A stretch of DNA of 29,086 nt from a virus. The stretch lies in IMG/VR virus record IMGVR_UViG_3300006810_000271, positions 1 to 29,086 of that record; one strand, given 5' to 3'. The notes below the pieces were generated by a model that did no database searches, was not told the DNA's origin, and worked only from the letters and a program-made list of their open reading frames with translations. The position numbers and the translations under genes were made by a program. Positions 389 through 28,401 of this stretch are shown piece by piece (position 1 is the first letter of the stretch; each line of letters starts with the position of its first letter).

Positions 389-1302
389 AGAAAGCTAGAA
401 TCAAAACGAGTATCAGCAATACCACTTTTTTCATCGGATCGGTATAGCAATCCATTCCACCCTAAATATCCACTTAGCGTAAAATCTACTTCCTGCCTAA
501 ACGCAGACCCTATAACCTCATGGGTTACCGAAGTTACCAACCAATTATAATCTGCATCAACCCCTCCCTTTGCCTCTGAGAATAACTCCGTATCAACATA
601 ATCCACTGGTGGGTCTACCTTTGCACCTACTGCATATATATATCCCCCATCCATAGGGTCGTTACTGATCTTTTGCTTAAAATCATTAGGTGCATGGGAA
701 ACAATAATAACTTTTAAAACAACTGAGAAATCTAGGTATTGTGTTACGCCTGGTAGATCATACATCGCTTCCTTTGGGAAATACCTAAAGCGCATACCCC
801 CAGCAGTACCACTACTCTCAAAGAACGCCTGATTTGATCCATTGGGTCCTCCCCCACTTACCTGCCCTCCGAACTTGTATCCAAATGCCTCATCCTCCTT
901 ATGGGCATCTGGGCTATTTGCTGGAATGTCTTTACCTTCCTTAAAAAATGGATGCGTCTGGATCGGTTCAGCTTTAGCACTAGACTCGACGCTATACCTC
1001 ACGAAATAATCACCACTCATGCAACCTTTGTATGTACAAGTAACAGTACCTAATCCAGCAGACATTCTCTGCACTCCGTAATTAGTTCTGACCAATGAAT
1101 CATATGTCGGATGGTTTTCTGATGCCCTTCCGTGCCTAACTACATCACTATAAGGTCCTATATAACTCACAGTAGCCGTGATAATTCCATCCATATCTTG
1201 TGAGAAATTCTCGTTGGTTTGCTTGAGGTTACCATCTAACTCTCCCGCACTTAATGAGGCTGGAGAACCATAAATTGTAATTGGTATTTCTGGGTCTGTC
1301 AT
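385..1302 (-). CDS. Putative distal tail / tail-tip protein, 305 aa
   Basis: A 305-residue protein starts 2 bp after the tape-measure stop and ends in an ATGA overlap with the next gene. It is acidic and glycine/serine-rich with mostly beta character, and has no signal peptide or transmembrane segment. A few cysteines occur in the first third (the stretch VTCTYKGCM around residues 87-95). I do not recognise a family. Position directly downstream of the tape measure is where distal tail (Dit-like) or tail-tip components are usually encoded, so it is called a tail protein on context alone. Confidence 0.6.
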   Translation of the reverse strand: MTDPEIPITIYGSPASLSAGELDGNLKQTNENFSQDMDGIITATVSYIGPYSDVVRHGRASENHPTYDSLVRTNYGVQRMSAGLGTVTCTYKGCMSGDYFVRYSVESSAKAEPIQTHPFFKEGKDIPANSPDAHKEDEAFGYKFGGQVSGGGPNGSNQAFFESSGTAGGMRFRYFPKEAMYDLPGVTQYLDFSVVLKVIIVSHAPNDFKQKISNDPMDGGYIYAVGAKVDPPVDYVDTELFSEAKGGVDADYNWLVTSVTHEVIGSAFRQEVDFTLSGYLGWNGLLYRSDEKSGIADTRFDSSFL

Positions 1303-1304
1303 AA

Positions 1305-4300
1305 TTAAAAATTAATTGGCTCAATTGCTGGCTGGGCATCTAAAGACTTCTGCTTTATACTTGCCTTGAGAATTTCTGCCGATCGTAACAATTCATTCGA
1401 TGCTTTAACCTGCGCACTTGCACCATTTATCAAGTGATTATTAACTGATGATGAAACCATCTCCCACTTTCCTGCCTTCTGTCCCTTGATCAATGGTGTC
1501 ATTTCTTTTGGTGCTGGCTTAAGTTTATAGAAAGGCTCAGTTATGCCTTGATTAAACGCCGCAAGCACATCTGCGGGCATAGCCTCTCCATCACTACTTT
1601 CTGCCCCTTGGTTAAATGCTGCAAGCACATCTGCGGGCATAGCCTCGCTCTTACTGCTTTCTTCCTTTACCATCTCCCATCTCCCAGCTTTCTTACCGCC
1701 AATCATAGTGGCATTATCTTCCTTATTGGGTTTTAATGTGAAGAAAGGCTTTATTACTTTTTTCTGGAAACTTTCACTAATAGGCTCTTCAGTAATACTT
1801 GGACGAGTAGGTGCCACGAATGGTCGATCATCAGTCTTCTCTTCACCCAATCTACTTTTGGGCATTTCTTGCGTGCCAAACACTCGATTTATTGGCTCTA
1901 CCTTTTTCATTAAGGTTGCCTTTGTGTCCATTATAGTTGGCGATTCTGGCATATTCTTTAGACCCATCCTTTTTAACAACTCATGCACGTTGTCATATTC
2001 TGGCATCCCTCCTATATCGATTCTGCTAGGTATCTGCCTGAATACTCCACTTAAATCCTCTATGCCAGCAACCTTTCTATTTGCATTGGCAATCATTGGG
2101 GCTGCACGAAGTTGAGGCATCTCAAGCTCCCTACTTCCTTCAGAATATGCACCCAACAGCCCCTCCATCATAGCTAATTCTTGATAGCGCTCTAATTGCG
2201 TGGGAGCTTTCTGATCTACCTTGTCTCTGAAATTTTCGTCAATTCTACCCTCGCCCGAACTAGTTCTGCTCAATCGGGTTATAAAATCTAAAAACTCATT
2301 ATAATTATTAAATCCACCTTTTAGTTCACCATTTATCTTCCCAATAAGAGCAGCTTCATTCTCAACCAACTGCCCCTTCTCATCATATACTGGCTTCGCG
2401 GTTTTCATTATTCTAATAGTATCTAACAATGAAGTGGCTATACTTTCTCCTTGAGCCTTAAAATCTTCCATAGACCTTTTAAAATTAATTTCGTTATACT
2501 CCGTTGCCACACTTTGTGCAATAGGTGCAGAGGGGACTAGCTTGTTCCATTGTGCTATAAAACCTTTCATTTGATTGGACTGCTCCTCTGGGTCGCCTTT
2601 CTTTTGAAAGCTCTTCTTGATATCTTCTAGCTTTAGTTCATCAAGCATCGCGATGAACTCTTTTACATTTTCTGCACCAGTAATCGTCGGCACAAACGGA
2701 GCTGAATATGAGGCGGTTGCAGCCTGATTTTCACCTAAAGCGATTTGGTCTGGTATTTCTGAGAAATTAGAGACAGTTGTATTTAGAGCATCTAATGAAT
2801 TTTTAAGAGCAAGATTGCTATCAATAAGCTGATCTTCTGGGTCAAATCCATACACTCCTCCACCAGCACCTATCTTTGTTTTGGAATCCCCAGTTACGGA
2901 CGGCATGAACCCTCTAACTTCATAATCTCCAAGCAACGGGTCTTTTCTCTCATAAATATTACCCTCATTCTTTGGCACCCCTGGTGCAAAATCAGATAAA
3001 GGTGGCTTATCAAATTCATACGCCTCTATCTCTTTATCAAACGCCGTTATCTTTTCTTTCAGCTTTTGTATTGCTAAAGAATCTCTAACTGGTGCCATCT
3101 CAAGCTCTTTGAGCTCTATTCGCAATCCCTTAGCTCCATCTACAAGTGAATTGAACGCCTCGGTAATCTTTGCATTAGCATTCTTTACATCCTCGTCATA
3201 ATTATCATCAAGTGCATTTTGAATATCTCCAGCAAAACTCTCTATGCGTCTTTTATCCCTTGCATAAACCTCATTAAATAATATCTCGCCTTTATCAATT
3301 TTTGGCGTTTTTCCTAAATGCTCATCCGATATCTGCACGATTCTCTCGTAATAATTCTCTAAGTCCATCAATGATTTTTTTAGCTTTTTCGCATTCGATA
3401 TCTCCTTAGCTTTCTCAAAGACTTCTAAGCCTCTTTCGCCTTTCGCATTATGCTCATTGACCTTTTCTTGTCTACCTGCTGCAAATTTATCTAAATGCGC
3501 GAATAGACTACTGAACCCCTTGCTTATACCTCTACTATCAAATAATGTTTGTTGGTCTTCAAACCCATGCCTTCTTAAAATAAACCTCAGAGAGCCACTA
3601 TTTAAATTATTAATGTCTTTTAATACCTCTCGCAAGGAACCCTTTACCATCTGCTCCTCTGGGTTCACCATGTTAATTTTTTGACCCTTCATGCCAGCTA
3701 CAAGTTCCCTAGCACTTCCCATTATGGAGTGTCCAAGACTGGTATCCATGCCCTCAAAGCTCCTAAAGGAACTGAGTACTTTATCACCATGCTTTTCATA
3801 TAAATCATCTACATGACTCACAGCCTTTGCCAGTGCCGCGGGGTCTCCAGATAGCATCTCCTGTAAATTGCCATGGTTCCTCTTAAACGCTTCAGTTTTA
3901 GCCTCTCTTACTGCCGCCATATCCTCTTTATCATCAGGAGTTAAATTTGCCTTGATTCTCTCAATAGACGCAGAAAAGAATGCTATAAATGGAGATAACG
4001 CACTTAACAACATAGGTGATATTTTTGCAAAGCCCAATAATATGCGATCCACAAAAGCAACAGCAATATCACCCATGGCATTACCCAACCCACTTACGGA
4101 GGATGAGTCAATTGATATCATATTAGCCAAGGTATCAAACACTCTCTGAAATGTTTGCAATATAAACTTAGCAGCTTTCGCAAAAGCAGACTTCATGATA
4201 GCGATCAAATAATCAAAAAACTTATCATCTCTAATAAGCTTCTTTATAAACGCCCACTCTTGCTGGAATCTTTGCCCAAGACCCTGCCAATCAAAATTGC

Positions 4301-5429
4301 GCATTCTCTGCATACCTTGCTCCATGAAATCAAGTATGTCTTTGAATACTGGTTTTAGAACCTCTCCGAGCTTGATAAAATTATTCATCGAGGTACGAGT
4401 TATTCTGGCAAATCTAAAGCCGAGAGTGTCCATCATTTTAGCAGTAGCTTGAGCTTGCGAACCACTAGGGTCTTCAAGTGCTTCAACCATACCGACAAAA
4501 TTTGTAGACTTAGCCAAAGTTAAAGCGGCGTTGCCAGCCTCAACTGATCCAAATAAATTACGCATAGAAATTTGGCGAGACTTCGCATAATCCCCAAGCA
4601 TCTTCACCACATCTACAAGCCGTCCACCTTCCTTTATATACTCCTCAAAGGGTTTTCCACGGGATGCCTGCAAGAAAGCCATATTAGCCTTATCCCCAGT
4701 CCTTGATATTTCAATTAAAAACTGCCTTAACTGAGTTGTACCGACTCGAGTCAAAGTACCAGTCGCTGCTAACGCAGATATAGAACCAAATAAGTCATCC
4801 AATCTAAGTCCTAGAGACCCAGCTGTTGGTAATATCTGATACATATAATCAGCTAATTCTCTGAAAGTAGTCTTAGACATTGCGACCGACTTAAACATTA
4901 AGTCAGAAACATATTGCATATCATAAACTCCTTGACCATAAGAGTTCACCACATTTGTTAAAGCGTCGACCGATGTTTTAAGGTCAGTAACTCCAGCTAT
5001 CGCAGCCTCTTGTGCTACCTTTAAAAATCCCTCATCTAAACCTTCTGGTGCTACACCCGCAGAGATAGCCTGATACATACCTTTTGAAACTTCTTCTGGC
5101 ATAATACCAAACTCCTCCGAGAAGGATAACGCATCACGCTTCATCTCCTCAAAGAATGCTCTATTGGCATTTGGAAGCAAGGTATAGACCTCCATCATGT
5201 TCTTCTCAAACTTAGAGAAAGCTTTTGCTGATGCACCTAATACAGCAGGCACACCACCTAATATAGTTAAGCCAGCCGTGTTTCCAGCAAAGCTCAATGC
5301 TCCCCTTAATGATGCTCCGATACCTCTACTGAGTTTACCTAGCGTCGAGATGCGATCATTCACATCATCCATTGCTCTCTTAAACTGCTTGGTATCAGCA
5401 GCGATTCTTACTTGTGCTGTTGCTGGCAT
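1305..5429 (-). CDS. Tape measure protein (TP901-like)
   Basis: This 1374-residue protein is the longest in the window, and it follows the tail chaperone and one small gene. The N-terminus (about 1-75) is helical. Residues about 75-310 carry a region typical of the PhageMin_Tail/TP901 tape-measure core, with alternating helices such as SFSEEFGIMPEEVSKGMYQA (102-121) and a conserved-looking ATGTLTRVGTTQLRQF. A hydrophobic stretch near residues 450-490 fits the membrane-active segment seen in many tape measures. The rest is largely helical and charged. The family sets tail length and guides DNA ejection. Close to the C-terminus (about 1225-1335) it carries an internal duplication (see repeat entry). 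A downstream stop 2 bp before the next ATG suggests coupled translation. Confidence 0.9.
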   Translation of the reverse strand: MPATAQVRIAADTKQFKRAMDDVNDRISTLGKLSRGIGASLRGALSFAGNTAGLTILGGVPAVLGASAKAFSKFEKNMMEVYTLLPNANRAFFEEMKRDALSFSEEFGIMPEEVSKGMYQAISAGVAPEGLDEGFLKVAQEAAIAGVTDLKTSVDALTNVVNSYGQGVYDMQYVSDLMFKSVAMSKTTFRELADYMYQILPTAGSLGLRLDDLFGSISALAATGTLTRVGTTQLRQFLIEISRTGDKANMAFLQASRGKPFEEYIKEGGRLVDVVKMLGDYAKSRQISMRNLFGSVEAGNAALTLAKSTNFVGMVEALEDPSGSQAQATAKMMDTLGFRFARITRTSMNNFIKLGEVLKPVFKDILDFMEQGMQRMRNFDWQGLGQRFQQEWAFIKKLIRDDKFFDYLIAIMKSAFAKAAKFILQTFQRVFDTLANMISIDSSSVSGLGNAMGDIAVAFVDRILLGFAKISPMLLSALSPFIAFFSASIERIKANLTPDDKEDMAAVREAKTEAFKRNHGNLQEMLSGDPAALAKAVSHVDDLYEKHGDKVLSSFRSFEGMDTSLGHSIMGSARELVAGMKGQKINMVNPEEQMVKGSLREVLKDINNLNSGSLRFILRRHGFEDQQTLFDSRGISKGFSSLFAHLDKFAAGRQEKVNEHNAKGERGLEVFEKAKEISNAKKLKKSLMDLENYYERIVQISDEHLGKTPKIDKGEILFNEVYARDKRRIESFAGDIQNALDDNYDEDVKNANAKITEAFNSLVDGAKGLRIELKELEMAPVRDSLAIQKLKEKITAFDKEIEAYEFDKPPLSDFAPGVPKNEGNIYERKDPLLGDYEVRGFMPSVTGDSKTKIGAGGGVYGFDPEDQLIDSNLALKNSLDALNTTVSNFSEIPDQIALGENQAATASYSAPFVPTITGAENVKEFIAMLDELKLEDIKKSFQKKGDPEEQSNQMKGFIAQWNKLVPSAPIAQSVATEYNEINFKRSMEDFKAQGESIATSLLDTIRIMKTAKPVYDEKGQLVENEAALIGKINGELKGGFNNYNEFLDFITRLSRTSSGEGRIDENFRDKVDQKAPTQLERYQELAMMEGLLGAYSEGSRELEMPQLRAAPMIANANRKVAGIEDLSGVFRQIPSRIDIGGMPEYDNVHELLKRMGLKNMPESPTIMDTKATLMKKVEPINRVFGTQEMPKSRLGEEKTDDRPFVAPTRPSITEEPISESFQKKVIKPFFTLKPNKEDNATMIGGKKAGRWEMVKEESSKSEAMPADVLAAFNQGAESSDGEAMPADVLAAFNQGITEPFYKLKPAPKEMTPLIKGQKAGKWEMVSSSVNNHLINGASAQVKASNELLRSAEILKASIKQKSLDAQPAIEPINF
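1546..1646 (-). repeat. 60-bp tandem duplication inside the tape measure gene
   Basis: Two copies of about 41 bp (1546..1586 and 1606..1646) lie exactly 60 bp apart; the 26 bases at 1561-1586 and 1621-1646 are identical. In protein they give the motif EAMPADVLAAFNQG twice with a 20-residue period. They are flanked by a more diverged outer pair, KPFFTLKP..KKAGRWEMV and EPFYKLKP..GQKAGKWEMV, so the tail end of the tape measure looks like a roughly 200-bp duplication with one inner unit repeated. Confidence 0.85.
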
Positions 5430-5430
5430 A

Positions 5431-6063
5431 TTACATCCTTAATTTTCTATGCTTTCTTATGACATAAACCATCATATCTTGTCTTGCACTTTTTAATGCT
5501 CTTGCTTCCGCAAGCCTTCGGTGCTTACCACTTACCACTCCTGGAACTCTTGATTGCCATAAAGCGAAGGGTTTGTTTCCTGTTGTTTTAATTTTTACTT
5601 TAGTATTTGGCTTTGCTCCCGAGTGCTTCTTATCTAATGATGGCGTAAATGATCTTGATTTCGGCTTCTCATTGGGTCTCCATTGCTTATATAGCATGGT
5701 TGCTTGCAACCACGCAGTGCCTCGATTACTCCTCCATGCGATTGCTTGCTTTTTACTTTTCTTTAAACCTTTAGCTCTCGGTGATACCGCATGCCTTGGG
5801 GGTCTTAAAGTGCCTTTACCAGCGGACTCTCTTTGCTTAAACTCTTGCTTAATCTTGGTCTTAGTTGCTCTTTTTTCATACAGAGTCTGACGCATACCAA
5901 CGACTTTTTTTGCGGATGCAGAACGAGGAGAGAAACCAGTGATGACCTTCCTCATCGTATGCTCAACTAATCCAGCCGTAGCTCTCTTATTTGCCTCTAC
6001 ATATTTCTTAAATGCTCGGTCAAATAAATGTCTCTCAAACTTAACTTTTATAAAGCTACTCAT
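5431..6063 (-). CDS. Strongly basic tail-region protein, 210 aa
   Basis: The product is very rich in lysine and arginine across its whole length (for example KGLKKSKKQAIAW and VSGKHRRLAEARALKSARQD), so it should be highly basic. There is no transmembrane segment or recognisable motif. Its ATG at 6063 lies 8 bp upstream of the stop (6056) of the frameshifted chaperone extension, so it is probably translated by coupling with that frame. It sits between the tail chaperone and the tape measure. A minor tail or assembly role is inferred from position; nucleic-acid binding is possible from the charge but not shown. Confidence 0.6.
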   Translation of the reverse strand: MSSFIKVKFERHLFDRAFKKYVEANKRATAGLVEHTMRKVITGFSPRSASAKKVVGMRQTLYEKRATKTKIKQEFKQRESAGKGTLRPPRHAVSPRAKGLKKSKKQAIAWRSNRGTAWLQATMLYKQWRPNEKPKSRSFTPSLDKKHSGAKPNTKVKIKTTGNKPFALWQSRVPGVVSGKHRRLAEARALKSARQDMMVYVIRKHRKLRM

Positions 6064-9029: not shown

Positions 9030-11243
9030 CTAGGGTGCATTGTTTTTATATGGATGTGAATTGGGCAGGTCTCCCGCCAAACCCCATTTGTGGGCTAGAT
9101 ACCCCTCCATCTTATCCGAATTAGCTGGGGTTAAATTTTCAGTAAATACTAACTCCCCCCAATCTGCATCACCATATGCAGTATATTTACCGACTCTTAC
9201 GCTCATTGTGCCAAAACTACTAAGACTATTATTAGTTACACCCGTATTATAGGCTGTACCATTTAACCAAGCTGATTGTGTAGAATTTGCTAGATTAAAC
9301 TCAGCAGACAACATAACATACTGACTTGTAAGGGCTGTAGTATTACCCGTCATATGACCACCAGTAGTATACCACTCAGCTTTAAAATCGGAACCGAATT
9401 GGAATAGAATAACTTGAAGTCCATTTCCAGTTATTGTCAAAAGCGCATCATTTTGATCAGCCTTAGTGACCTTTAATACCATAAAAAACTTATGGACTGC
9501 TGTGCTATCAAATGCTATCGGGGTCCAGTTCGTAGCATCTGCATCCCCGTCAAAACGCAATATACTCTTACCATTTTGAGCACTTGCTATAGACTGAACT
9601 GTAGATGAACCTTCTGGACTAAGATTGTAACCATTTCCTGATTTATCGTCTATTTGTGTAACCACACCACTTGTGCTAGTGATTGTAGTAGGATCATCTG
9701 CATCGAGCCAGAATCTTGTAGAGATTTGACTGGGGTTAAATCCAGAAGAGCCCACAGTGGCTAAAGCCATCTCGTCTGCATATGCTTGACCTATCTCAAA
9801 CATATCATTTACCCCTGTTCCAGTAGTATCAGGGTTAGTAGCCGTTCCAACATGATTATTAGTATTTGCGTGCCCATAGGCAGCAGAATCTACTATTCCA
9901 ACATAGTTATCAGCATTTGCTACTGGCGTTAAATCTGTGCCATAACCTATCTTTGTGATAACCACAGGAAGCTCATTCTTGGGTATATCCAATGTAAAAT
10001 TATTATCTAAATGATCCCTTACATGAGAAATAAGAGCTTGAAGGTCGCTTACAGTAGCTCCACTTTCTCCCTGCCACCATATCATTCCTGCAATGCGATA
10101 GGTATATCCAGCGTTTGTTAATTTGCTCAACCCATCAGATATAGCTAACTTCCATGCTCTTAATGCGTCTCCTCTACGGCTTCCAGTAGCAGTTAAGTCC
10201 CAATCTGAAAATCCACCAGAAGGATCACTAGGATCATCCACCAATGTGCTTGCACCAATAGCGTGCTTTAATACACCAATGGGTCTGCCTCCTGTTAGAT
10301 TGATTGCATTCGCTTGGTTAACGAAACCTAACTCAGGTCCAAAATTACTTGATCCCCCCAATGTGGAAGTGCCACTATCCCCCCTTGTATTACCCGCAAC
10401 CAAACTAGTTGCCCAATCTGAATAATACTGAGTGGAAGAAGCATTTGAAGTATTATCATGCCAAGAAGAGTAAAATATACCATCTTGTGTATAAAGCGCT
10501 GAGTCTAACGCACTTACATCTGCATGACCATGTGCATTAGACTGACCAGCGAGTAAATAAATATCAATTGTTTGATCAGATATTTGAGAGTTATCCGTTC
10601 CTCTATACCACTTTCCATTGTACCCATAAGCTAGAACTGGGTCAGAGTTTATCGACCCATCCTCTACGAATATGACCTGCCCATTGGTGACAATTAACGG
10701 AAGGCTATTCCTTTGGTATATAGTTGGAGGTTGCTCTAGAGCACCTATGCGAGTGCCAAGAGATGTAACTTGGGCGGTAGTAGGCTGAGCATCAAACCAT
10801 GCTTTTCCATAAGCCTCTACATTGCCTGAGTTATCTACAATCTTTAATGAATCGGGTCCAAGATAAAGGTCACGCACTCTATTTACGGCGCTACCGACAT
10901 CTTGAAGGTTATCGGTATTTGGCAATATATGTCCGTTGCTATCTTCTGACCAATCCGTAAGACCGCCTCCACCGCCTCCACCGCCTCCACCGCCAGCAAG
11001 CTGTGCTTCTATATCATCTACTCTATCTCCAACTTCTGCTCTTAATTGTGCCAGCGCATCCAACGCACTGGCTGCGGTCATATCTGTGCAAGCGCAGGTA
11101 GAATAATTAGCTATAGATACAGGAGTGTAACTTACATCCTTAGCATCAAGAGAATCAAGCCTCCCACTAAAAAGAGAGACTTTATGATTTAAGCCTTTAG
11201 CTATGACACCGACATCAATGCCGATGGACTTGAGGTGGCTCAC
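9030..11243 (-). CDS. Tail fibre with SASA esterase and LamG-like domains
   Basis: A 737-residue protein. Residues 1-80 are a helical start, then 11 glycines (84-94), then a fibre motif (LPNTDNLQDVGSAVNRVRDL, 107-126). Residues about 225-495 form a SASA/sialate-O-acetylesterase-like SGNH domain with the block I nucleophile in GQSNAHG (Ser235) and WWQGESG (389-395). Residues about 502-735 form a LamG/concanavalin-like domain beginning ISTRFWLDADDPTT and ending with EGYLAHKWGLAGDLP. SASA enzymes remove O-acetyl groups from glycans, so this is probably a receptor-modifying fibre. At the usual catalytic His position the sequence reads GVNDMFEIG, so the His may be replaced. The start overlaps the Fn3 gene by 4 bp. 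Confidence 0.85.
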   Translation of the reverse strand: MSHLKSIGIDVGVIAKGLNHKVSLFSGRLDSLDAKDVSYTPVSIANYSTCACTDMTAASALDALAQLRAEVGDRVDDIEAQLAGGGGGGGGGGGLTDWSEDSNGHILPNTDNLQDVGSAVNRVRDLYLGPDSLKIVDNSGNVEAYGKAWFDAQPTTAQVTSLGTRIGALEQPPTIYQRNSLPLIVTNGQVIFVEDGSINSDPVLAYGYNGKWYRGTDNSQISDQTIDIYLLAGQSNAHGHADVSALDSALYTQDGIFYSSWHDNTSNASSTQYYSDWATSLVAGNTRGDSGTSTLGGSSNFGPELGFVNQANAINLTGGRPIGVLKHAIGASTLVDDPSDPSGGFSDWDLTATGSRRGDALRAWKLAISDGLSKLTNAGYTYRIAGMIWWQGESGATVSDLQALISHVRDHLDNNFTLDIPKNELPVVITKIGYGTDLTPVANADNYVGIVDSAAYGHANTNNHVGTATNPDTTGTGVNDMFEIGQAYADEMALATVGSSGFNPSQISTRFWLDADDPTTITSTSGVVTQIDDKSGNGYNLSPEGSSTVQSIASAQNGKSILRFDGDADATNWTPIAFDSTAVHKFFMVLKVTKADQNDALLTITGNGLQVILFQFGSDFKAEWYTTGGHMTGNTTALTSQYVMLSAEFNLANSTQSAWLNGTAYNTGVTNNSLSSFGTMSVRVGKYTAYGDADWGELVFTENLTPANSDKMEGYLAHKWGLAGDLPNSHPYKNNAP
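10963..10994 (-). repeat. 9-bp tandem repeat encoding the poly-glycine linker
   Basis: On the plus strand the unit CCGCCTCCA is repeated about 3.5 times; it encodes the Gly11 hinge between the N-terminal helix and the fibre domain. Because the unit is a multiple of three, copy-number change alters linker length without breaking the frame. Confidence 0.8.
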
Positions 11244-25731: not shown

Positions 25732-26637
25732 TTAATCAGCTCTTAATGCTTCAAACTTTAATTTTTCTGATCCTATTTCGGGTATTCTTCCCAAGAAGAA
25801 CTTGAGCCAGATTGCGCCTAGTGGCTTTGGTGGTCTCCCTTTTTCCATATGAAACCCCGAATCCTTGACACCATACTCATTTTTGTAAGTAGGTATTTTG
25901 ATATGCAATTGTTCATCAATATATTCTTTACCATCCTGAGTAATGCGAGCCCTAGCATTAGGCAGAATCCAATGATCATGAGTATGACCAGTAGCAACGA
26001 TGTTAGCGTCTGGCAGGACAACGCCCATACGATTTGCACCAATGACCCCCTTTGTGACGGGTCCACCTCCTCCTGCCCCGTGGAACATATATAACCATAC
26101 TGTCCCAAGGCTCCTTGATTTCGCATCTTTCTTATGTCTTCCTCTAATTCCGATCCAATTAGCGATTTGACCTGTTTTGACGGTTGCATTTGTTTTTCCA
26201 TTTAATGAATTAACCAGCCTTTCTGTTAAATCTGTTTCTCTGTGCTTATATACAGCAGTTTCATGGTTCCCTTTACCCATGACTAAAATATTTGAAGCAT
26301 ATGGCTTGAGCCACTCCGAATATGTATCGACCAATTTATCTAGGTAATTGCCTCCCTTGTGCTCCAACTTAATATCATTCTTGCTCGCTCTCGGGTCGCC
26401 CTTTCCTTGCATAGCGCAAAAGGCATCACCATTATCTAGAATAAACGCTTTCTTTTTTATAGCCTCCTCTAAGTGCCTTTTCTCCATAGCATTATCGGAG
26501 TGCGGATTATCATGGTGTGCATCACTTCTCAACAAGCACCAGATCGGTTTGTTAATTTGCTTTGTCTCAAATGTTATATCCACGAAAAAGATGCCTTCTG
26601 ACACCTTCCTGATTTTGAAAGGTTTATCATCTTTCAT
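25732..26637 (-). CDS. Calcineurin-like metallophosphoesterase
   Basis: A 301-residue protein with all metal-binding blocks of the calcineurin-like phosphoesterase fold: SDAHHD (Asp39, His41), NGDAF (Asp71), GKGNHE (Asn124, His125), MFHG (His186) and GHTHDHW (His218, His220). This implies a two-metal enzyme that splits phosphate esters. It could act on a nucleotide, a sugar-phosphate or DNA ends; the sequence does not say which. The first about 30 residues are an added strand region. Its ATG overlaps the glycosyltransferase stop (TAATG), so the two are coupled. Likely roles are in DNA modification metabolism or DNA processing near packaging. Confidence 0.85.
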   Translation of the reverse strand: MKDDKPFKIRKVSEGIFFVDITFETKQINKPIWCLLRSDAHHDNPHSDNAMEKRHLEEAIKKKAFILDNGDAFCAMQGKGDPRASKNDIKLEHKGGNYLDKLVDTYSEWLKPYASNILVMGKGNHETAVYKHRETDLTERLVNSLNGKTNATVKTGQIANWIGIRGRHKKDAKSRSLGTVWLYMFHGAGGGGPVTKGVIGANRMGVVLPDANIVATGHTHDHWILPNARARITQDGKEYIDEQLHIKIPTYKNEYGVKDSGFHMEKGRPPKPLGAIWLKFFLGRIPEIGSEKLKFEALRAD

Positions 26638-27383
26638 TACACGCCTCCTATTGGTATTTTTATTATAGGGTTTATATCATAGGTGACTTGTCGCTTTCTT
26701 TGCGTATTTGAGTTCCCTTTATCTCTCCTAACTATATCTTTTCCCCACTTCTTTTCTAATAACTCAAACTGGTCTTTCTCTTCGTCTAAAGTCCTATACT
26801 CTGCACACCCCCCAATATTAGTATGTTGCTCACAAATATAATGAACATGATTAATTCGTAATATTTTTCTATACTTGTTGAGCATTTGAAGGCTAAGATC
26901 ATAATCCTCCTTTAATGGAAGGTTTTCGTCATACCTACAACTAGGGTTAAGAAAGCCACCAAACGGTCCTAGTATAACATTCGTCAAACTAAATGGAGTG
27001 TACTCTCTATAAGCACCTTTATCTTGTATAATGTTAACACCCCACATCTTAACGCCAAATTGTTCGGCAAGCATAAACCCATACTCAATAAATTCTTCAG
27101 CTTCATCCCCGCTCATTTTATGACACTCGTTGCCATTCCACCTTGAGAGGCACTTTAAATCATCATCTACAATGCAGACATTCTCTTTTTTAGCATAATC
27201 AAGTATCCAGTTCCTAACCCTGCTTACATTGCCTTGATCCTTATCCTGGCATGCCAATACAGGCAAACCTTTGTCTAAGTAGCTCTTCTCCTGCGACTTA
27301 CAAACTACATATTTAAGGCTGGGGAAATACTTATGGGAAGTGCAAATGTCAGCCCTCTTCCAACTGGGAGCTAAGATCATCAT
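26637..27383 (-). CDS. GT-A fold glycosyltransferase, TET-associated (TAGT)-like
   Basis: A 248-residue protein with a GT-A nucleotide-sugar fold. It shows MMILAPSWKRADI (start of the Rossmann part), the DxD-type motif VCIVDDDLKCLSRW (Asp73-Asp75), a GGFLNP strand, and the acidic KEDYDLSLQMLN (158-169) followed by TNIGGCAEYRT. This order, with IVDDDL then EDYDLSLQ then GG, is what I recall of the TET-associated glycosyltransferases proposed to add sugars to hydroxymethyl-cytosine in phage DNA. No TET/JBP dioxygenase or base-modifying partner is in the window. It overlaps the ParB-like gene by 4 bp (ATGA). Alternative: a wall or capsular glycosyltransferase. Confidence 0.7.
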   Translation of the reverse strand: MMILAPSWKRADICTSHKYFPSLKYVVCKSQEKSYLDKGLPVLACQDKDQGNVSRVRNWILDYAKKENVCIVDDDLKCLSRWNGNECHKMSGDEAEEFIEYGFMLAEQFGVKMWGVNIIQDKGAYREYTPFSLTNVILGPFGGFLNPSCRYDENLPLKEDYDLSLQMLNKYRKILRINHVHYICEQHTNIGGCAEYRTLDEEKDQFELLEKKWGKDIVRRDKGNSNTQRKRQVTYDINPIIKIPIGGV

Positions 27384-27988
27384 TTCTTGTTTAAACTCCT
27401 AATGTAATCCGATCCCTTTATTACTCGTCCAATGCCCTTACTCCACGGCTTACCATTAGCTCTACGAGAATGAACAGAATCAAGGTTAAAATGGGTTTGG
27501 GCAGATAGCCAATCAACATCATTGTCGAATGTCAGAACTACATAATTATGCGACTCATCAATGTACTCTGAAAACTTAACTTCTGGCTCTTCCTCTGCAT
27601 CATCTTCGGTTAACTCCTTCAACACATCGTCAGCCTCAAATCCCCAATCAATCAAATCTTCGGGGTCAAAATTATTGGCAAGCAAATCCCAATCCCACTG
27701 CCCACCATTCTTGTTCATGCGTACATTTAATTCCTTTTCTTTCGCTAATGGCAACTTGACCTCTACGCAAGGTACGGTGTCATTGCCCATTTCAGACCAG
27801 ATACGCAATCGCTGATGTCCACCTATAACTATATTTTCTCGCCCCTTGTGCATGTTGACGAGTACGGGCTCAACTAAGCCAAATTTTTGTAAGCTATTTT
27901 TTAAGTCCTCATATTGCTTTTTAGTAAGCTCCCTCGGATTATATTCGCTTGGCTTTAATGCACCTATTTTTTTATCTACAGTTTTCAT
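27380..27988 (-). CDS. ParB/sulfiredoxin-fold protein in DNA-modification cassette
   Basis: A 202-residue protein. Residues 8-95 form a ParB-type nuclease/NTPase domain: LKPSEYNPRELTKKQYEDLK with NPR at 17-19, and the core VIGGHQRLRIW (54-64). An acidic linker (EDDAEEEPEVKFSEYIDE) follows, then a small C-terminal domain (NYVVLTFDNDVDWLSAQTHF) and a basic end (RRANGKPWSKGIGRVIKGSD). Phage ParB-fold proteins next to DNA modification enzymes may bind DNA or act in base modification. It is coupled by 4-bp overlaps to the HTH-like gene upstream and the glycosyltransferase downstream. The molecular activity is not evident from the residues. Confidence 0.75.
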   Translation of the reverse strand: MKTVDKKIGALKPSEYNPRELTKKQYEDLKNSLQKFGLVEPVLVNMHKGRENIVIGGHQRLRIWSEMGNDTVPCVEVKLPLAKEKELNVRMNKNGGQWDWDLLANNFDPEDLIDWGFEADDVLKELTEDDAEEEPEVKFSEYIDESHNYVVLTFDNDVDWLSAQTHFNLDSVHSRRANGKPWSKGIGRVIKGSDYIRSLNKK

Positions 27989-28401
27989 AATCTTTTTCGT
28001 TGACCCCTCCCTTTTATGCTGAACTTTTCAGAGAACTTAATTGCTTGTTTACTAAGAGATTGCTTGTAGACATTCACACCCTTTGACTTTGCTATCTCCG
28101 ACAAAGCCAATCCGTTGAATAATTCAGGTCTAAGAACCCAGCACATAGCTATTGTCTTACGCATTAATGTCTGTCCATAACTTGCTGAATTAACATCACC
28201 CATGGTCAACCAAGTGAGCATTTCTCTCAATACTTCACCCAATTGCTGTACCGAGTCTGGATCATAATTTGGCTCTTCATACTCCCCATCTATTGAGTCA
28301 TAGTCAAAGTTATGGCACTGACCATCTGTTTGAAAGTCAGCTCTATTTTCGTCAAAGTGATATAAAGAATTATTTTTCCCCATTTGCCCATTCCCCCTCA
28401 T
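27985..28401 (-). CDS. Small helix-turn-helix-like protein of packaging region
   Basis: A 138-residue protein with an acidic N-terminus (FDYDSIDGEYEEPNYDPD) and a C-terminal region like a helix-turn-helix, LALSEIAKSKGVNVYKQSLS followed by KQAIKFSEKFSIKGRGQRKR. This suggests DNA binding. It lies between the small terminase and the ParB-like gene. The frame opens at 28401, but ATG 28383 (MGKNN) has AGGGGGAATGGG about 10 nt upstream and is the better start. It could be a regulator of late genes, a packaging accessory, or a second small-terminase-like DNA-binding protein; none can be decided here. Confidence 0.6.
   Translation of the reverse strand: MRGNGQMGKNNSLYHFDENRADFQTDGQCHNFDYDSIDGEYEEPNYDPDSVQQLGEVLREMLTWLTMGDVNSASYGQTLMRKTIAMCWVLRPELFNGLALSEIAKSKGVNVYKQSLSKQAIKFSEKFSIKGRGQRKRL

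Follow-up and report, generated by a model that had tools for sequence, protein, structure and literature searches.

Genes between the Terminase Subunits

The window analyzed here is the complete IMG/VR virus record IMGVR_UViG_3300006810_000271 (29,086 nucleotides), which is probably a fragment of a phage genome. On its minus strand, as a preliminary description of this DNA had stated, genes for a ParB-fold protein, a transferase, and a phosphoesterase lie between those for the two terminase subunits. The upstream flank of this slot is the terminase small subunit (TerS; 28984-28370; phrog_57, E 1.2e-20). It is followed by a 138 amino acid open reading frame (ORF; 27985-28401) that overlaps TerS and ParB, is retained in five dereplicated relatives, and had no family match in family-profile searches. 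The next genes encode the ParB-fold protein (202 amino acids; 27988-27380; PF02195, 32.9 bits), the transferase (248 amino acids; 27383-26637), and a calcineurin-type metallophosphoesterase (301 amino acids; 26637-25732; phrog_7339, E 2e-9). The downstream flank is a GpA-type terminase large subunit (TerL; 25725-23944; PF05876, E 4e-38; PF20454, E 1.5e-28), after which come portal and protease genes. The ParB and transferase ORFs share 4 nt, and the transferase and phosphoesterase ORFs share 1 nt. The motifs that had been reported are also present: GGHQR in ParB, VDDDL and EDYDLSL in the transferase, and a full set of metal sites in the phosphoesterase. Gene order is unchanged in close relatives whose transferases are 89% and 73% identical to that of the window, and the three-gene observation (ORFs, motifs, and order kept in close relatives) is real, far beyond chance.

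A 47.8 kb sister contig (G001) has 23 mismatches to the window across the window's length, and its early region adds genes for Erf, RusA, a DnaC-like loader, and an O-like initiator. The same contig carries, on its minus strand, a 374 amino acid glycosyltransferase-like ORF with no Pfam or PHROG match (L008:13681-14805), which adjoins a tail-fiber-like gene and is a possible second transferase of this phage. It also has VWA/metallopeptidase (DUF2201) and AAA ATPase genes side by side (L008:2719-4957), which resemble the CobS/CobT-like pairs that have been described for tailed viruses, HHTV-2 among them. In the window, a large tail-region protein (9030-11243, minus strand) has a sialate O-acetylesterase-type (SASA) domain and is probably glycan-active.

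The Transferase Belongs to the TAGT Family

The transferase had been assigned from its motifs to the TET-associated glycosyltransferases (TAGTs), and a profile search had been suggested as a check. That search bears out the assignment: the protein scores 32.8 bits against the Pfam profile PF20691, above the curated cut-off of 27.5, and it matches phrog_842 (beta-glucosyl-HMC-alpha-glucosyltransferase) with an E value of 4.5e-14. An AF2 model (pLDDT 87.8) has a GT-A fold with GT2/GT-A enzymes as its Foldseek neighbors. The closest solved folds are the GT2-like TarS, TarP, and glucosyl-3-phosphoglycerate synthase, plus a transferase crystallized with Ara-A; because these neighbors include cell-wall and small-molecule GT2 enzymes, the fold alone leaves the acceptor unfixed. 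A PDB sequence search with the TAGT profile returned nothing useful. The DDD motif (residues 73-75; 27159-27167, minus strand) is a predicted nucleotide-sugar/metal site, and its three aspartates (D73, D74, and D75) are invariant among 45 homologs, as are D160 and D162 of the EDYDL motif (residues 159-163; 26895-26909, minus strand).

TAGTs were reportedly defined in a 2013 paper, and the PF20691 family is named for its association with TET/JBP dioxygenases. We found no such dioxygenase in the window, in its 47.8 kb sister contig, or in any of 29 further long records, which is compatible with PF20691 membership because T6-type members also lack TET. The beta-glucosyl-HMC-alpha-glucosyltransferase of T2 and T6 shares with the window TAGT a PF20691 score over the cut-off, phrog_842, and the GT-A fold. 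The T-even enzyme acts after dCMP hydroxymethylase and an alpha-glucosyltransferase (alpha-GT), whereas neither of these was found with the window TAGT. A TAGT tree contains three separate groups, namely the window clade (24 rows), a clade that includes c5 and HHTV-2 (7 rows), and a T4-like clade, and the first two are wholly ParB-paired. TAGT was absent from the plasmid records searched.

ParB and TAGT Form an Invariant Pair

We gathered relatives of the TAGT from viral contigs, and 101 loci remained after dereplication at 85%, 83 of them with at least 1.5 kb of upstream DNA. A ParB gene lies on the same strand no more than 1.4 kb upstream of the TAGT in 83 of these 83 loci, a figure that is valid for the window's own TAGT clade and not for all TAGTs, because the relatives were found with ParB-paired seeds. 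There are just three other ParB matches in 976 kb, and the TAGT loci without ParB, before dereplication, are cut off at or near a contig end. These counts show that the ParB linkage is obligate in the window's TAGT clade. The usual gene orders are ParB-TAGT-TerS-TerL and ParB-TAGT-TAGT-TerS-TerL, and the pair is found with two unrelated TerL types (Terminase_3-like and GpA-like). In some loci, the space between ParB and TAGT is occupied by a second TAGT, an FkbM-type methyltransferase, or another SAM methyltransferase.

Isolate phages with the pair include Streptococcus Javan291, L. delbrueckii c5, L. gasseri jlb1, E. coli vB_EcoS-613R10, haloarchaeal HHTV-2, and Nocardia NTR1. Microbacterium phage Jayden additionally has a UDP-glucose dehydrogenase, and its pair lies in the right arm, distant from the tail and lysis genes. 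Unlike the window, the T4-like Aeromonas phage Ah1 has a TAGT with no annotated adjacent ParB, and the same is true of two Vibrio phages; TAGTs of the T4 type function with no ParB next to them, which means that ParB is not a general requirement of TAGTs. We also compared natural in-place deletions among close isolate Lactobacillus phages (L257, which is c5, versus L266 and L267, which are Ld25A and LL-Ku). Ld25A, a phage of L. delbrueckii, lacks the ParB C-terminal domain of c5 and nearly all of the TAGT, and in LL-Ku a deletion fuses ParB residue 36 to TAGT residue 69. As these deletions hit ParB and TAGT together, the pair is dispensable in those hosts and was lost as a unit.

The phosphoesterase has a calcineurin-type metal set (D39xH41, G70D71, G123NHE126, H186, and G217HxH220) that is invariant in eight homologs. 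It had no match to the Pfam Metallophos profile at E 0.1 (phrog_7339 was its only family match), and a PDB sequence search with its profile gave nothing useful. The preliminary description had cast this enzyme as an extra step of the pathway and had suggested counting the co-occurrence of the three genes. In that count, ParB accompanies TAGT throughout (83/83), and the phosphoesterase is beside TAGT in only 5 of about 92 distinct TAGT loci, all in the GpA terminase lineage. In four more loci it is divergently adjacent to a ParB-TAGT operon, and 71 of 75 sampled phosphoesterase relatives (40-52% identical) lack a TAGT in their vicinity. This distribution led us to exclude the phosphoesterase from the conserved unit, and it is best read as a separate, optional passenger gene of this lineage. 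ParB and TAGT alone make up the invariant unit, which the earlier account had missed.

ParB Combines a Constant N-Terminal Domain with a C-Terminal Domain that Tracks TAGT

A PDB profile search with the ParB-fold protein gave matches to ParB (E 2e-11), and its AF2 model (pLDDT 81) matches ParB/Noc CTPases (E 6e-7). With 32.9 bits, it has the ParB_N domain of partition ParB proteins; the ParA family had no match in family-profile searches of the window and the early region of G001. The N-terminal domain (residues 1-105; 27674-27988, minus strand) resembles ParB/Noc CTPases, sulfiredoxin, and free serine kinase in fold and includes GGHQR as residues 56-60. It is the constant part of the protein, common to the ParB of methyltransferase, Mom, and TET cassettes. 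The TAGT-specific C-terminal domain (approximately residues 130-202; 27383-27601, minus strand) is marked by the pattern NYVVLxFDNDxDW...GIGRVIxG.

We computed the co-variation of protein distances over the 61 loci with a Terminase_3-like TerL. Distances between ParB N-terminal domains correlated with those of TerL (rho 0.43) and not with those of TAGT (rho 0.04), whereas C-terminal domain distances correlated with TAGT (rho 0.50) and weakly with TerL (rho 0.13). The C-terminal minus N-terminal difference in correlation with TAGT was 0.47 (bootstrap 0.33-0.60), which is an effect size and not a probability, because the loci are not independent. The C-terminal domain occurs in six ParB-seeded loci, with a TAGT adjacent in all six. 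TAGTs of the c5/HHTV-2 clade are paired with a ParB that has its own, different conserved C-terminal domain, for which hhalign found no similarity to the window type; this second type spans a haloarchaeal virus and phages of Lactobacillus, E. coli, and Nocardia. As the C-terminal domain tracks TAGT and the N-terminal domain tracks the terminase, ParB would consist of a platform and an enzyme-specific adaptor. We propose, with support from the co-variation, that the C-terminal domain is the adaptor that recruits TAGT.

The ParB Partner Is Exchanged in the Terminase-Side Slot

We collected further loci with ParB instead of TAGT as the seed. In these loci, the same ParB N-terminal domain is found fused to DPPY methyltransferases, or it precedes Mom (PF25680, up to 168 bits), a C5-methyltransferase, an N6/N4 methyltransferase, a radical SAM protein, an ABC-ATPase/GNAT protein, Tet_JBP (L175, 92 bits), or TAGT. 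About 20 loci share a backbone in which TerS is 91-99% and TerL about 90-95% identical, and in which the ParB N-terminal domain is 82-97% identical in most loci and 70-72% in the two TAGT carriers. What follows ParB in this backbone is Mom, ABC-GNAT, TAGT, a fused methyltransferase, or nothing. The isolates HHTV-2 and HCTV-2 have the N-terminal domain in common, and at the position of the HHTV-2 TAGT pair HCTV-2 carries a methyltransferase fused to ParB. ParB thus appears, from these gene neighborhoods, to be a platform shared by many DNA-modifying enzymes, a feature that had escaped the preliminary description.

Exchange also involves TET. Two loci (L293 and L300) have the order ParB-TET-TAGT-TAGT-ParB, and L289 has ParB-TET-P-loop ORF-TAGT-ParB, with the P-loop ORF in place of one TAGT; in all three, the operon (about 860-5920) encodes two distinct ParB proteins and has a phosphoesterase divergently adjacent. 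L294 has a window-type ParB-methyltransferase-TAGT cassette, and its conserved flanking genes are mostly 65-81% identical to those of the TET-operon lineage. The L294 TAGT is 51% identical to the window TAGT, and the L294 ParB aligns with the window ParB over 201 residues and with the TET-type ParB over the N-terminal 121-125 only. In one lineage, a window-type ParB-TAGT cassette has replaced the ParB-TET-TAGT operon (L294 versus L289, L293, and L300). Exchange of this kind with other DNA-modifying enzymes, including replacement of a TET operon, makes phage DNA the likely substrate of TAGT. The earlier supposition that the transferase acts on DNA is thereby strengthened by gene context (a ParB shared with Mom, TET, and methyltransferases, and slot exchange).

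Known Hydroxymethylation Enzymes Were Not Found in ParB-TAGT Records

The preliminary description had seen no dioxygenase or hydroxymethylase in the window and had nevertheless proposed sugar on hydroxymethyl pyrimidines. Searching outside the window was likewise negative: TET, a thymidylate-synthase-type hydroxymethylase, and a C5-methyltransferase were each absent from 30 of 30 ParB-TAGT records longer than 27 kb (the 47.8 kb sister and 29 others), which speaks against that proposal. None of the three was found in five further ParB-TAGT isolate phages, one of these searches having no internal positive control. As a sign of its sensitivity, the TET search recovered each of the four TETs known in the set (L175, L289, L293, and L300), and the hydroxymethylase search found a TS-family match in the T4-like Ah1. 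The L294 contig (39.9 kb) likewise yielded no TET, no precursor enzyme appeared when 35 Javan291 proteins were scanned against Pfam, and no AGT/BGT family member was among the Pfam matches of the window and the G001 early region. These absences refer to known families in contigs most of which may be incomplete, and they leave room for an unrecognized oxygenase. An N6/N4 amino-methyltransferase was present in 3 of the 30 long records, and we rejected it as a required partner on that count.

A Model for ParB-TAGT Function

We consider it likely that these phages have a modular slot for DNA modification and that the window represents one of its alleles, in which ParB, its adaptor, and TAGT put sugar on phage DNA. 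ParB would bind phage DNA through its N-terminal domain, and its enzyme-specific C-terminal domain would, as the co-variation suggests, recruit TAGT, which would then use a nucleotide-sugar donor to glycosylate a base in the phage DNA. Glycosylation would probably occur late, close to packaging, and the sugar may shield phage DNA from host nucleases or restriction. Optional neighbors (the second TAGT, the FkbM-type or other SAM methyltransferase, and the UDP-glucose dehydrogenase) might extend or decorate the sugar. As no hydroxymethylating enzyme is encoded alongside, the acceptor would be either an ordinary base or the product of an unrecognized enzyme. A plausible but tentative extension is that ParB-TAGT is self-sufficient, placing sugar on an unmodified base without hydroxymethylation in an undescribed linkage, as one plug-in of a general ParB platform with enzyme-specific adaptors. 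A slot to which DNA-modifying enzymes are drawn could also accommodate a counter-defense gene unrelated to them.

It is possible, if somewhat doubtful, that a hydroxymethyl pyrimidine is made by an enzyme encoded elsewhere than on the contigs, by a host enzyme, or by an oxygenase that escaped recognition, and that TAGT glycosylates it classically; this differs from the model above in the acceptor only, the DNA substrate being shared. PF20691 members of known function use hydroxymethylated or glucosylated bases (PMC13216743), TAGT stands beside TET in L289, L293, and L300, and the contigs may be incomplete. However, the three enzyme families were missing from the 30 long records and five further isolates in searches that, for TET, were sensitive, and in L294 the window-type cassette replaces the TET operon instead of joining it. 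We regard it as quite unlikely that the phosphoesterase performs a third step by taking a phosphate off a modified base or sugar. Its ORF overlaps that of TAGT by 1 nt in the window, and it is co-located with TAGT in five distinct loci and divergently adjacent to ParB-TAGT operons in four more, but most TAGT loci lack it, few of its relatives have a TAGT nearby, and the copies directly beside TAGT are confined to the GpA terminase lineage.

Glycosylated phage virion proteins exist, and ParB-TAGT could in principle act on a protein of the virion or of the packaging machinery, or on a glycan of the host surface, its terminase-side place reflecting co-expression with head genes. The late-operon position and the resemblance of the TAGT fold to TarS, TarP, and other GT2 enzymes would fit, but an obligate ParB partner common to Mom, TET, and methyltransferases, the indifference of the pair to terminase type, and its location in Jayden far from the tail and lysis genes make a protein or glycan acceptor unlikely. 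It is very improbable that ParB is an ordinary partition protein of a plasmid-like prophage with TAGT as an accidental neighbor: such a protein would have a ParB_N domain and resemble PDB entries for ParB and Noc, as this one does, but no ParA match was found in the window or the G001 early region, the C-terminal domain co-varies with TAGT, and the linkage to TAGT at every locus with enough upstream DNA already contradicts it.

Relation to Known Systems

Several systems resemble the ParB-TAGT pair, a probable DNA-glycosylation system, in part. The phage TET/JBP operons (L289, L293, and L300) are headed by ParB, include TAGT, and occupy the same genomic slot in related phages, whereas window-type phages are without TET. 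The closest relatives of the ParB N-terminal domain are in ParB-DNA methyltransferase fusions of temperate phages (phrog_498, PADLOC MTase_II), which sit in the same pre-terminase slot; the window differs in having a separate glycosyltransferase and a different ParB C-terminal domain. DpdB is a ParB-like ATPase that works with a DNA-modifying enzyme in Dpd systems, and the Dpd (DpdA and ParB-like DpdB) and Dnd (DndB) systems combine a ParB-fold protein with a DNA-modifying enzyme, as here (PMC12839542). Their chemistry is base exchange or backbone sulfur modification by a nonhomologous enzyme, whereas here the enzyme is a glycosyltransferase.

In T-even phages, the acceptor of a TAGT-family enzyme is a sugar on DNA (PMC13216743). 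Solitary TAGTs (with no alpha-GT or beta-GT) are found in 288 of 753 phage genomes, and their function was stated to be open (PMC13216743). To this picture we add the ParB link, the adaptor domain, and slot exchange; PMC13216743 does not mention ParB, and the novelty of the link is limited by the fact that the 2013 paper lies outside this comparison. Together with the matched adaptor domains and the exchange of TAGT for Mom, TET, or methyltransferases in the slot, the linkage to ParB indicates the most likely role of solitary TAGTs and predicts a sugar on DNA that is formed without known hydroxylation steps. If this is true, it would imply new base-modification chemistry and a general platform in which ParB loads DNA-modifying enzymes of phages, and it would provide a handle on counter-defense in isolate phages.

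Other Candidate Enzymes in the Slot

Additional gene combinations were seen after ParB in other loci. A ParB-Tet_JBP-glutamine-amidotransferase-like-GNAT-like-kinase-like operon lies directly before TerS-TerL in L175 (4998-8857) and looks like a complex TET-based hypermodification cassette. In L232 (86-1944), ParB is followed by a radical-SAM protein, with a TAGT match further on at about 1.3 kb. In L180, L186, L188, L221, and L246, the gene after ParB encodes an ABC-type ATPase with a fused GNAT domain (phrog_11143), which by the logic of the slot is a candidate new DNA-modifying enzyme. Another candidate is the 312 amino acid protein that follows ParB in L203 (4634-5572), which has no Pfam or PHROG match.
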